Shown one piece after another: positions 3,625 to 7,743 of a stretch of DNA of 64,000 bases (position 1 is the stretch's first letter; every line of letters begins with the position of its first letter). The notes under the pieces were generated by a model, which had not been told where the DNA came from, searched no databases, and was given only the letters and a program-made list of their open reading frames with translations. A program made the position numbers and the translations under genes. This DNA comes from Bacillota bacterium (GTDB lineage Bacteria > Bacillota > Bacilli > Alicyclobacillales > SLC66): NCBI GenBank assembly GCA_021820975.1, contig JAKADA010000001.1:124001-188000 (forward strand). The letters are read 5' to 3'.

Positions 3625-3692
3625 GTTCTTTAAAACGAACGTAATAGGCTAAAAAAACCCTTGATATCTAAAATTCGTTCTATATAATGAAC
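3625..3692 (+). promoter_or_regulatory. Paired SinR-like operator boxes over the matrix operon promoter
   Basis: Two copies of GTTC-N8-GAAC lie at 3625-3640 and 3677-3692. The first begins GTTCTTT, an exact match to the Bacillus subtilis SinR box GTTCTYT. The second covers the -10 element. A further GTTCTTA lies at about 3702. Because sinR and sinI are encoded 3.7 kb downstream, SinR repression is the natural reading; this is inference from motif and context. Confidence 0.65.
3661..3688 (+). promoter_or_regulatory. Sigma-A promoter of the matrix operon
   Basis: TTGATA at 3661-3666, a 16-base spacer and a perfect TATAAT at 3683-3688, about 55 bases before the first gene of the operon. Confidence 0.75.
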
Positions 3693-3743
3693 GATATAAG
3701 GTTCTTACTACCAAACAGTATTTTTGGTTAAAGGGTGAATGCC

Positions 3744-4574
3744 ATGCGCGACGGGAAGATTGATGCAACCATCTACAGAACGCGCAAAGAGCGACAAGCA
3801 CATGATCGAAAAATCAAACGCAGGACATATGGTACGTATCTGCGCCAAGCAGGAATCCTAGGTATTGCCACAGGCTTAGCGATTAATTCTCTCATGTTAT
3901 CGCACCAGATGCAAGGTACAGAAGCTATGTTAACATCTCAAGCTACGACGACTTTATCGTTTTCAGCGGTTGATCATTTTCAAGGATGGTATCAAGGACT
4001 TGTGGATCAAGTGTCATCAGATTGTAGAGAGGGCAATACTATTTTGGCAGCAATACAAAGGCATACAGTCTCTGATGACGATAGCTCCCATCTCTTTCTT
4101 GATGAGCAGCAAATTCAGCAGCTAACTCTCGATGCACAACATGTGTACTCGAAGATTACAAAAGCTGCCATAGAGGATGAGAACAAAGCGCAAATTTCAC
4201 CGGTTGAATCTTTACTAAGGGTAGAAAAGTGGGGGCAAGACGCGCAAGAGAAGGCGTTGAAGTATTTGAAACGATTACAAAACGACTTAGTAACGGTCAA
4301 AAATATCGTTAAGGCACAATCAACGGTAGTTGATGATACGCAGTGCGTCACCAACCATTTTACGGTATCAAACTTTGATCAACTTGCTGGAGGAGATTTG
4401 AATGGCTCCTCGCATGCTGCCGTGACGGATACAGTATACACGGTTACGTATGGAACGTACATGGCACAAAGCGAGCAAGGACAGACGCTATTACCAAATG
4501 TCTTGCAAGTGCCGAATACGCCAAATACTGTAACGCAAGCAACGTATCAAAGCAGTGCGCAACCACAACCTTAG
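3744..4574 (+). CDS. Membrane-anchored protein in the tapA position of the matrix operon
   Basis: A 276-residue protein with a basic N-terminus (residues 1-33), one hydrophobic segment at about 36-56 and an extracytoplasmic remainder. The stretch after the helix (TEAMLTSQATTTLSFSA) resembles the start of mature proteins handled by SipW. Residues about 100-200 are predominantly helical and charged; the tail is Thr/Gln/Pro-rich. The ATG at 3744 is chosen over a GTG at 3735 because AAAGGGTG lies six bases before it. It is the first gene before sipW and a TasA-like gene, the place of tapA (yqxM) in Bacillus. Sequence similarity to TapA is not evident by eye, so the role as fibre anchor or assembly factor is inferred from position. 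Confidence 0.6.
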   Translation: MRDGKIDATIYRTRKERQAHDRKIKRRTYGTYLRQAGILGIATGLAINSLMLSHQMQGTEAMLTSQATTTLSFSAVDHFQGWYQGLVDQVSSDCREGNTILAAIQRHTVSDDDSSHLFLDEQQIQQLTLDAQHVYSKITKAAIEDENKAQISPVESLLRVEKWGQDAQEKALKYLKRLQNDLVTVKNIVKAQSTVVDDTQCVTNHFTVSNFDQLAGGDLNGSSHAAVTDTVYTVTYGTYMAQSEQGQTLLPNVLQVPNTPNTVTQATYQSSAQPQP

Positions 4575-4607
4575 ATAGGCTGCGCCAAGGTGGAAGGGGA
4601 AAGCAAT

Positions 4608-5228
4608 TTGAAACGTATGATGCGATGGATAAGTAATCTCGTCACGATCGTCTTAGGTATGTTATTGATCGTAACGATGTATGCAGCGGTATCTTCGAGA
4701 CTTAGTAACGGGACACCTACGATTTTGGGGCAGCAGTGGTATGAAGTGCTATCGGGATCTATGGAACCTCGTATTCATGTTGGATCGGTTATTTTTGATC
4801 GGACTGTTGCAAATGTGAATTCGTTGAAGGTGGGTGATGTAATCACCTTTAAAGCACCCAATCATGAATACGGCACGAATGAATTGATCATTACGCACAG
4901 AATTTACAAGATTGTTCATCAACATGGTCAATTGCTGTTTCAAACAAAAGGAGACGCGAACAACGCACCTGATCCATCTTTGGTTCCTGCAAGCGGTGTA
5001 ATTGCACAGTACGACAACTTTACGATTCCTTACTTGGGCTACTATCTAAATTTCACAAAAACAAAGCTTGGTGTGGCACTCCTTTTGATCTTGCCTGGTG
5101 CGCTACTTATTATCAGTACGATGTTGGGATTGTTTCGAGAGATTTCAAGGTTGCAAAAAGTACAACAAGGGGGTGATCGTGCTAAAAAGTCTGCTGAGGA
5201 GCTTAACGGTGTGCCTTCAGTGAAATGA
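4608..5228 (+). CDS. sipW: Signal peptidase I, SipW type
   Basis: A 206-residue membrane serine protease of the ER-type (SipW) class, which cleaves the signal peptides of TasA-family proteins. It has an N-terminal helix (about 9-29), catalytic Ser51 in SGSMEP, the VGDVITF strand, His97 in ITHRI where bacterial P-type enzymes carry Lys, and a C-terminal helix (about 158-178) with a basic tail. The TTG at 4608 is preferred because GAAGGGGA lies seven bases upstream; the GTG at 4590 would put that site inside the gene. It sits between the anchor-like gene and two TasA-like substrates, the usual arrangement. Confidence 0.92.
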   Translation: MKRMMRWISNLVTIVLGMLLIVTMYAAVSSRLSNGTPTILGQQWYEVLSGSMEPRIHVGSVIFDRTVANVNSLKVGDVITFKAPNHEYGTNELIITHRIYKIVHQHGQLLFQTKGDANNAPDPSLVPASGVIAQYDNFTIPYLGYYLNFTKTKLGVALLLILPGALLIISTMLGLFREISRLQKVQQGGDRAKKSAEELNGVPSVK

Positions 5229-5293: not shown

Positions 5294-5938
5294 ATGGGTT
5301 TGAAATCAAAATTATTTATGGCAGTGGCAACATCCGCAGCAGGTGCAGCAATGATCGCAGGTGGAACGTTTGCCTACTTTAACAGTACAGCAACAATTCA
5401 ATCCAATACATTTGCTGCGGGCACAGTAACCTTAAATGCAGTACTTGACCCAACTTCAAGCGGCTATTCTACGACAACAACTGGCTTTAATGTTACTAAT
5501 ATGGCTCCTGGACAGTCGTTTACTGAAACGTATAATCTGTCAAATAAAGGCACTCTTAATATTGGCGATCTCACGGCAAATTTTGCGTATACCCCATCAA
5601 TGGCATCTAATGCAGTATTTGATCCTAATCAAACCGCAACCACGGAACCTGCGGATCTTGGCTCACAACTGTACATCAATAGCATTACAGTCGGTGGCCA
5701 AAATGTGACTAGCAATGTTGAATCACAACTTGGTATAACAGGACAGTTGACTGTCGCTGATTTAAACGGCAAAGTGCTTGACTTTGGAAGCCTGGGTACA
5801 TTAAAAGCTCAAAGTGGCACAACATCCATCGTGATTTCAGGTGACTTTAATGATGCTACTACTCCTCAGAACTACTATCAAGGTTCAAGCTTATCTGGTG
5901 ATGTAACTTTTGTTGGAACCCAAGCCCAACAGAGCTAA
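5294..5938 (+). CDS. TasA/camelysin-family biofilm fibre protein
   Basis: A 214-residue secreted protein of the TasA/camelysin (peptidase M73) family, a major extracellular matrix fibre subunit in Bacillus. The signal peptide runs to about residue 27 and the mature N-terminus has the family pattern FAYFNSTATIQSNTFAAGTV. The motif NMAPGQSFTETYNLSNKG, typical of the beta-sandwich, follows at about 75-93. It is cysteine-free, as usual for these fibres. The GGGGGG ribosome site nine bases before the ATG suggests heavy translation. It lies downstream of sipW and is followed by a strong terminator. It is shorter than TasA of B. subtilis (about 261 residues), closer to camelysin or CalY. Confidence 0.88.
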   Translation: MGLKSKLFMAVATSAAGAAMIAGGTFAYFNSTATIQSNTFAAGTVTLNAVLDPTSSGYSTTTTGFNVTNMAPGQSFTETYNLSNKGTLNIGDLTANFAYTPSMASNAVFDPNQTATTEPADLGSQLYINSITVGGQNVTSNVESQLGITGQLTVADLNGKVLDFGSLGTLKAQSGTTSIVISGDFNDATTPQNYYQGSSLSGDVTFVGTQAQQS

Positions 5939-5954
5939 TTAAAGACGATAGTGC

Positions 5955-5986
5955 AGGGGCGAGTCGGTGATGCTCGCCCCTATTTT
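5955..5986 (+). terminator. Terminator between the two TasA-like genes
   Basis: Nine-base perfect stem AGGGGCGAG/CTCGCCCCT with an ATTTT tract. It would make the second paralogue less expressed than the first, or dependent on its own promoter. Confidence 0.8.
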
Positions 5987-6043
5987 GAAGCAAAGATCTG
6001 AGTGACAGTGGTTATAGCTATTGCTTTAAAGGGGGATTTCGCG

Positions 6044-6751
6044 ATGTTATCAATGAAACTTAAAATTGTTACCCTTGGGTTAGGTAGCATTTTAGGCACC
6101 ACGTTGCTCGTTGGTGGGGTTACTTATGCCATGTTTAATTCCACCGCCTCAATTGCGGGTAATAGTTTTGCTGCAGGCACAATGAATATCTCGTTAACTC
6201 GGGACAACGGTGACTTGGTCAATGCACCAGGACCCATGTTCTATTCAAGTACGTCGGATACTACCGGATATTATCCCTACGATAAAAATGGTAGTGGGCA
6301 GCTAGTTGGCGGATGGGCTCCAGGGGACACACTATCTCGCTATGCAGACCTGAAAAATAATGGGTCATTGAAGGTGCAAATTTACAATATTTCGGCTACG
6401 GCTGACTCGAGTAATGCCATTGCTGCGGGCTCTGGTAGCACTGTTTACACCGGTGAAACGTCGGGTGCTGCTTATGACTACTTTCTTCAACAGATGCAGA
6501 TAACCGTCACAGATCAAACTGGGACGGTGTTGTATAATGGGCCTCTTAGTGCACTGGTCAACAAGGGTGGATACAACCTCTCACAACCGTTTGTTATGGC
6601 GCCGGCAGTCAATGGTTTACCTAGTGTAGAAAATTTGAAATTTACTGCTTATTTAGAACCTGGAATTGACAACGAAGACAATTTGTTGCAAGGTAAAAAC
6701 TTTATTTTTAATTTTACCATGTCTGCTAGGCAAGTACCTGCTGTTAGTTAA
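6044..6751 (+). CDS. Second TasA/camelysin-like protein
   Basis: A 235-residue secreted paralogue of the preceding fibre protein. The signal peptide ends near residue 27; the mature start (YAMFNSTASIAGNSFAAGTM) repeats the TasA pattern, and GWAPGDTLSRYADLKNNG corresponds to the APGQS motif of its neighbour. The rest diverges strongly and is rich in Gly, Ser, Tyr and Asn, so it may be a minor or capping subunit. ATG 6044 follows AAAGGGGG; the upstream in-frame start at 6002 has no ribosome site. The terminator upstream sets it apart from the sipW operon. Confidence 0.85.
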   Translation: MLSMKLKIVTLGLGSILGTTLLVGGVTYAMFNSTASIAGNSFAAGTMNISLTRDNGDLVNAPGPMFYSSTSDTTGYYPYDKNGSGQLVGGWAPGDTLSRYADLKNNGSLKVQIYNISATADSSNAIAAGSGSTVYTGETSGAAYDYFLQQMQITVTDQTGTVLYNGPLSALVNKGGYNLSQPFVMAPAVNGLPSVENLKFTAYLEPGIDNEDNLLQGKNFIFNFTMSARQVPAVS

Positions 6752-6856: not shown

Positions 6857-6965
6857 ACTGTTTTACACCATAAAATAGAGTTTTTTCGTCAGATCGCGTT
6901 GTGCTTTTCTGTCGAAGCATGCCCAAGTATGTCATTATACTAGAGAAAGAGTAGATTTAAAATTC

Positions 6966-6995
6966 TTGCCTATTATTCCTTCTGGCACATACAAT
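6966..6995 (+). promoter_or_regulatory. Probable promoter of the riboswitch-sinI transcript
   Basis: TTGCCT, an 18-base spacer and TACAAT end about 25 bases before the aptamer begins, a usual distance for a riboswitch leader. Confidence 0.5.
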
Positions 6996-7019
6996 AAAAA
7001 GAGCGGTTTCTTTCAAGAA

Positions 7020-7119
7020 AAGGCAAACCTGACTGAAAAGCAGGGACGCAAAGTCACAGTTCTAAGGCCACGAAAACACAGAGACACGTAAGTGGTTATG
7101 AACGCTGGACTACCAACAG
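7020..7119 (+). promoter_or_regulatory. Cyclic di-GMP-I (GEMM) riboswitch in the sinI leader
   Basis: The aptamer hallmarks occur in order: GGCAAACC (7022-7029), a short hairpin with a GAAA tetraloop, the invariant GGACGCAAAG (7044-7053), TCTAAGG and later TTATGAA, which together make the 11-nt tetraloop receptor with a T-A pair in place of C-G, and GCTGGACTACC as the closing 3' strand. The position equivalent to G20 of the Vibrio Vc2 aptamer reads G by eye, which favours c-di-GMP over cGAMP. CCAACA at the aptamer end (7113-7118) can pair with TGTTGG (7137-7142), which overlaps the G-rich ribosome site of sinI. Control of translation initiation is therefore plausible. Confidence 0.85.
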
Positions 7120-7153
7120 AAAGTGCCAGACACGCATGTTGGGGGCTAGATGC

Positions 7154-7336
7154 ATGCAAGATCCTTATTTATGGGGTTGGGGTAAGGAATCGATCGATCC
7201 AGAATGGATTAAGCTTATGGCAACGGCTAGAGAGCTTGGCATTTCCATTGAAGAGGTGCGGGATTTTTTGCAAAATTATCGAAATCTAATGCACCTCAAT
7301 GCCACACAACAACACAATACTACATCACCTTCCTAA
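7154..7336 (+). CDS. sinI: SinI-like anti-repressor
   Basis: A 60-residue protein whose residues 15-45 (DPEWIKLM, then AxxxGIS and VRDFLQNY) match the SinI/SinR dimerisation domain. SinI antagonises SinR by heterodimer formation and so releases biofilm genes. The same block occurs at the C-terminus of the SinR encoded next. The ATG at 7154 is chosen because GGGGGC lies eight bases before it. The N-terminal MQDPYLWGWGKES is unlike B. subtilis SinI, and the tail is Thr/Gln/Asn-rich. Translation is probably governed by the c-di-GMP riboswitch just upstream. Confidence 0.85.
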   Translation: MQDPYLWGWGKESIDPEWIKLMATARELGISIEEVRDFLQNYRNLMHLNATQQHNTTSPS

Positions 7337-7359
7337 GGGTGTTCGCAATCCCTTCGATT

Positions 7360-7368
7360 TGTTATAAT
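7360..7368 (+). promoter_or_regulatory. Extended -10 promoter of sinR
   Basis: TGTTATAAT is a perfect extended -10 (TGN plus TATAAT) 40 bases before sinR; the -35 region is weak. It gives sinR a promoter separate from the riboswitch-controlled one, as in B. subtilis. Confidence 0.65.
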
Positions 7369-7407
7369 GAGTGTGTAGGATAGAGAGCGTTTGAGGAGCC
7401 GTTTTGC

Positions 7408-7743
7408 ATGATTGGACAACGAATTAAACAACTCCGTGAAGAGCGCGGGATATCTTTATCTGAGTTAGCGCATCGCGCTGGAGTTGCTAAATCATATCTG
7501 AGTGCAATTGAGCGACTCATTCAAATTAATCCTTCTATACAAGTGATTGAAAAGATCGCTGCTGTGTTTGATGTTTCTGTGCAGACACTTCTTCTATCTT
7601 CGGAAAAGCAAGAGGATACCTTACAAGTAGATCCCGAATGGATTGAGCTTGCCAAGGAAGCTATGGAGTCAGGCATAAGTAAGGAACAATTTCGCGAATT
7701 TCTACAATATCAGCAATGGAGATCACGCCATCAGGATAACTAG
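7408..7743 (+). CDS. sinR: SinR master biofilm repressor
   Basis: A 111-residue DNA-binding protein colinear with B. subtilis SinR. Residues 1-65 are an Xre-type helix-turn-helix (MIGQRIKQLREERGIS, then SELAHRAGVAKSYLSAIER); residues about 73-104 are the SinI/SinR interaction helices (DPEWIELAKEAMESGIS, FREFLQYQQW). SinR represses matrix operons and is inactivated by SinI. The GAGGAGCC ribosome site precedes the ATG, and a terminator follows. Boxes matching its known target lie over the sipW operon promoter. Very confident assignment. Confidence 0.95.
   Translation: MIGQRIKQLREERGISLSELAHRAGVAKSYLSAIERLIQINPSIQVIEKIAAVFDVSVQTLLLSSEKQEDTLQVDPEWIELAKEAMESGISKEQFREFLQYQQWRSRHQDN

Follow-up and report, generated by a model that had tools for sequence, protein, structure and literature searches.

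A c-di-GMP-I riboswitch in front of sinI in an Alicyclobacillus relative and across Bacilli, predicted to switch SinI translation on

The leader of sinI in the DNA studied here carries a c-di-GMP-I riboswitch, and we consider it likely that this element switches SinI translation ON at high c-di-GMP. Within this reading, the ligand, the ON sign and the effect on SinR targets are the parts that we infer. The DNA is a stretch of 64,000 nucleotides (hereafter the window) from an Alicyclobacillus-related genome. In B. subtilis, sinI-sinR is driven by Spo0A, and SinI/SinR is the textbook decision circuit of Bacillus biofilm formation. Judging from the sequences compared, the riboswitch-sinI arrangement is probably a widespread direct line from c-di-GMP to biofilm formation. 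On balance, we favour the view that control of sinI by a c-di-GMP ON riboswitch is an ancient and widely kept input of the Bacilli, setting the SinI:SinR ratio directly in many of their lineages, and that B. subtilis is the exception that lost it. If so, the biofilm signal of most bacteria would enter the SinI/SinR switch directly via RNA, and B. subtilis would be a poor guide to its relatives for this input.

According to the proposed mechanism, in the ligand-free state the aptamer's 3′ end, with C92 in it, would pair into the Shine-Dalgarno (SD) site and occlude it. Binding of c-di-GMP to G20 and C92 would close P1 and withdraw this strand, leaving the SD free, and SinI would be made. SinI would then titrate SinR, and the matrix genes would be derepressed.

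The riboswitch and its closing helix are located as follows:
7012–7117, plus strand: c-di-GMP-I (GEMM-I) riboswitch aptamer (RF01051, 68.3 bits; alignment with 23 relatives)
7010–7123, plus strand: P1 helix that closes the aptamer, CUUUC 7010–7014 with GAAAG 7119–7123 (sequence and constrained fold)

The aptamer had been proposed in a sequence-only reading of this DNA, and the RF01051 covariance model confirmed it: the match is significant, well above the gathering score of 35, and spans the full model (1–87 of 87), with an E-value of 3e-11 for the window and 2.7e-13 within the genome. All the hallmarks named in that reading were found where it had placed them. They comprise GGACGCAAAG at 7044–7053, the GAAA tetraloop of P2 at 7035–7038 and the 11-nt receptor in P3, formed by a UCUAAG strand with UAUGA, in which U-A replaces the consensus C-G. 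P1 reaches slightly beyond the start given there. The equivalents of the ligand-contact bases are G7022 (G20, the c-di-GMP-type base), A7050 (A47) and C7113 (C92), and the C92 column is invariant among 24 aligned sinI riboswitches. A counterpart of P1, GCUUUC/GAAAGC, occurs in the leaders L010, L021 and L023. The characterised riboswitches Vc1, Vc2, Bc1 and Bc2 share with the window the aptamer class, the G20/A47/C92 contacts and the GAAA tetraloop with its receptor, but their target genes are other than sinI.

At the G20 equivalent (column 11 of alignment A1), L029 and L135 carry A, and L024 and L101 carry C. Such a base could mean a changed ligand preference, e.g. cGAMP for A20.

The genes of the locus are these:
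4590–5228, plus strand: sipW-type signal peptidase of a probable SinR-controlled operon (NF046067, 187.7 bits, just short of the cutoff of 190; TIGR02228, 149.1, above cutoff)
5294–6751, plus strand: two TasA/camelysin-type matrix proteins, 5294–5938 and 6002–6751 (PF12389, 87.6 and 31.5 bits; TIGR04088 SipW-dependent signal peptides)
7141–7145, plus strand: Shine-Dalgarno of sinI, GGGGG, 8 nt 5′ of ATG 7154 (likewise placed in L006)
7154–7336, plus strand: sinI, a SinI-family anti-repressor of 60 aa, or 66 aa from the alternative ATG 7136 (PF08671, 45.2 bits, cutoff 31.4)
7408–7743, plus strand: sinR, an HTH repressor with a C-terminal SinI domain (HTH_3, 60.4 bits; SinI, 57 bits)

The riboswitch had been described as lying directly before sinI-sinR, and this is the order that we observed: the aptamer ends 36 nt 5′ of the SinI-family ORF, sinR comes next, and all three are on the plus strand. 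The sinI product has the SinI domain and no HTH_3 match, and is encoded beside sinR. With the NCBIfam equivalog NF046031 it scored 32.9 bits, under the curated cutoff of 80, so it belongs to the SinI family but is not a B. subtilis-type equivalog in the narrow sense. The likely start, on sequence grounds, is ATG 7154, which together with its SD is conserved in the nearest relative, L006 (74% identity between the two SinR proteins). ATG 7136 is a less likely start, as it lacks an SD and is not conserved in L006.

The riboswitch-sinI-sinR unit stands directly 3′ of the sipW-tasA matrix operon, which identifies the locus as a biofilm-matrix locus. The SinR targets in this genome probably include this adjacent operon. 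The SinR operator GTTCTYT occurs in the window at chance level (19 sites vs 16.4 expected), with only one site (3625–3631) upstream of the operon, so that SinR control of sipW-tasA is here something we infer. Just 5′ of sipW, in the position of tapA, lies an ORF of 279 aa (3735–4574), for which no convincing Pfam or NCBIfam match was found.

Several candidate transcription signals surround the riboswitch:
6885–6891, minus strand: candidate Spo0A box TGACGAA, which fits TGNCGAA exactly and lies 127 nt 5′ of the aptamer
6910–6916, plus strand: candidate Spo0A box TGTCGAA, again an exact fit, 102 nt 5′ of the aptamer
6966–6995, plus strand: candidate sigma-A promoter TTGCCT-18-TACAAT, agreeing with the consensus at 9 of 12 positions; transcription from it would start shortly before P1
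7363–7368, plus strand: TATAAT, which may be the −10 element of a promoter for sinR alone (sequence only; the promoter scan made no call here)

Matches to the Spo0A box are somewhat enriched before sinI riboswitches (11 of 56 leaders vs 4.4 expected; as many in 1 of 200 shuffles). If the boxes are real, Spo0A would set the transcription of sinI and c-di-GMP its translation. The promoter scan of the region returned 4 promoter-like sites, against 2.4 by chance. A TATAAT of a similar kind precedes sinR in L006, L009 and L010. If sinR has its own promoter, the riboswitch would alter the SinI:SinR ratio and not both proteins.

To survey other genomes, SinR loci were drawn from public genomes, from the window's order and from a set of 399 Bacilli genomes, and were searched either with RF01051 or with a second model, for which 24 of the aptamers served as input. 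This yielded 58 distinct sinR-proximal riboswitches in genomes of 18 numbered families of the class. The sequence-only reading had suggested looking for the same leader before sinI in related genomes; 56 of the 58 stand directly before an ORF with a SinI domain, its start codon mostly 18–47 nt 3′ of the aptamer; the remaining two, L209 and L210, have no SinI ORF behind them. In the window's order, a close SinR was found in 26 of 59 genomes, and in 17 of these 26 a riboswitch precedes a sinI next to sinR. Genomes of the window's family contain one to nine c-di-GMP-I riboswitches in roughly 1.4–4 Mb, so chance does not explain why they turn up so regularly less than a kilobase from sinR. Among the scanned loci, 28 have a sinI without the riboswitch, a count that includes some duplication between collections.

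Two layouts recur. In the first, that of the window, riboswitch, sinI and sinR are all on one strand. In the second, riboswitch-sinI is convergent to sinR (e.g. L013, L165, L172, L184, L189, L192, L194, L197 and L201–L204). In A. ferrooxydans and A. mengziensis (L044 and L045), a riboswitch-sinI-sinI cluster is found some 8 kb away, apart from the main sinR locus, with its second SinI-like ORF a few hundred nt past the first. Duplications of another kind were seen in two further genomes. Genome G025 has two sinI-sinR loci (L127 and L146), one with a c-di-GMP-I and the other with a c-di-GMP-I-GGC variant riboswitch, and in G077 (L163) two riboswitch-sinI-sinR copies lie ~2.5 kb apart (1848–1925 and 4390–4468).

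The locus of B. subtilis resembles the window in its SinI/SinR pair beside sipW-tasA type genes and in the candidate 0A boxes upstream. It differs in the riboswitch: the sequence-only reading had noted that none is known in B. subtilis, RF01051 was unmatched in the named control genomes (B. subtilis included), and the five loci with a B. subtilis-like SinI (L164, L167, L169, L180 and L181) have none either.

For Bacillus methanolicus MGA3, Table 4 of Irla et al. 2015 (PMC4342826) already has an entry for a putative c-di-GMP riboswitch ahead of sinI. That entry shares with the window the riboswitch class and the target gene. It concerns one Bacillus species, whereas the window comes from an Alicyclobacillus relative, and it is given without structure, mechanism, sign or comparison. 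New here are the breadth over the Bacilli, the SD-sequestering platform that the leaders have in common and the sign that we predict. From Paenibacillus sp. FSL P4, an "antisense-acting" c-di-GMP-I riboswitch has been described at a SinR homologue (PMC9943018); the same riboswitch class thus lies next to sinR, but it was read there as antisense to that gene. In our analysis, such riboswitches at sinR may more simply be the leaders of unannotated convergent sinI genes. No experimental test of a sinI riboswitch was found in the full-text literature, most subscription journals being outside reach.

The predicted control of SinI rests on a hairpin between the aptamer and the start codon:
7113–7142, plus strand: anti-P1 hairpin, CCAACA 7113–7118 with UGUUGG 7137–7142, covering C92 and the first two SD bases (folds, cognate test, opening energies)

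This pairing had been proposed at exactly these positions, as a hairpin over the ribosome site that competes with P1. The MFE and centroid folds both contain the helix, and a c-di-GMP-I riboswitch that controls SinI translation through such a hairpin accords with the covariance model, with the relatives and with the folding. For the window, the ensemble computed without ligand is almost entirely anti-P1 (−44.58 of −44.61 kcal/mol). It is favoured by 4.5 kcal/mol over the aptamer-competent ensemble, a gap that, in this model, ligand binding could plausibly pay. Keeping C92 and its neighbour unpaired, a crude stand-in for bound ligand, makes the SD of the window cheaper to open, at 0.75 instead of 3.06 kcal/mol, a gain matched by 2% of linker shuffles. 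The stability of the leader as a whole is not unusual (z −0.62) and thus uninformative.

A transcription-terminator platform was considered and rejected. The terminator scan of the window found none between aptamer and SD, and no U-tract after a hairpin was seen in this interval in the leaders of relatives, which argues for translational control.

The same strand is set against the SD in relatives. Among 28 leaders less than 80% alike, duplexes of the C92 strand with its cognate SD strand average −6.55 kcal/mol, vs −4.79 with swapped partners; none of 20,000 permutations was as good, a value that is not a strict probability because the leaders share ancestry. For the C92 strand of the window, its own SD-strand partner was the best of the 28. 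The paired sequences themselves change between clades: in one Alicyclobacillaceae group (L021 and L023), CCGAAG pairs with CUUCGG, and in Bacillaceae-type leaders CCUGAAAUAC pairs with GUAUUUUAGG, the latter ending in the SD. In 16 leaders with this last hairpin, 160 of 160 pair cells are standard, and a slide of 1–3 columns leaves 26–53%. Within these 16 the helix varies one-sidedly, by G-U changes only and with no two-sided covariation, so that the case for classical two-sided covariation depends on comparing clades, whose leaders are related.

Could the same riboswitch act with the opposite sign? Ligand would then leave the SD or the start codon in a second hairpin (7134–7139/7152–7157), turning SinI OFF and favouring SinR. 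When the window is modelled as bound, this hairpin is weak and includes part of the AUG, which is thus partly paired in the aptamer-competent fold. Moreover, the modelled ON effect over 38 leaders is modest (mean 0.92 vs 0.31 kcal/mol in shuffles, p=0.048), with exceptions on both sides, and it is reversed in several relatives (L131, L145, L017, L045 and L163). There is also precedent for either sign: c-di-nucleotide aptamers that are closely alike are reported to be ON or OFF switches (PMC9262584). Nevertheless, we regard an OFF switch as unlikely, given that in one clade after another the recurrent platform pairs the C92 strand with the SD region and that the SD opens more cheaply in the bound state in the window and most Bacillaceae-type leaders.

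Still less probable, in our estimate, is that the element is a conserved relic or weak tuner, which binds c-di-GMP and hardly changes SinI, the control lying with Spo0A at the promoter as in B. subtilis. The two candidate 0A boxes and the promoter-like site directly upstream would fit such an arrangement. So would the case of Bc1 of B. thuringiensis, a well-folded c-di-GMP-I riboswitch that binds its ligand and yet barely changes expression in vivo (PMC11218506). The platform of Bc1 is long and contains two terminators (PMC11218506); that of the window is a short SD-sequestering hairpin without a terminator. A relic or weak tuner is at odds with the finding that the bases contacting the ligand and the strand pairing with the SD are both kept across 18 families, a retention that needs selection.

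A switch answering to 3′,3′-cGAMP or another dinucleotide instead of c-di-GMP, as the A20 or C20 in 4 of 24 aligned riboswitches might suggest, is very improbable, since the window and most relatives have G20 and the genome is rich in GGDEF/EAL, with 15 GGDEF and 9 EAL domains.

The genome of the window contains five c-di-GMP-I riboswitches, the sinI leader among them. By eye, three of the other four stand before secreted proteins of unknown family (L002), before a large, glycosidase-like secreted protein (L003) and before a FapA/DUF342-like protein (L005); the fourth (L001) sits where a convergent hemL-like gene ends.
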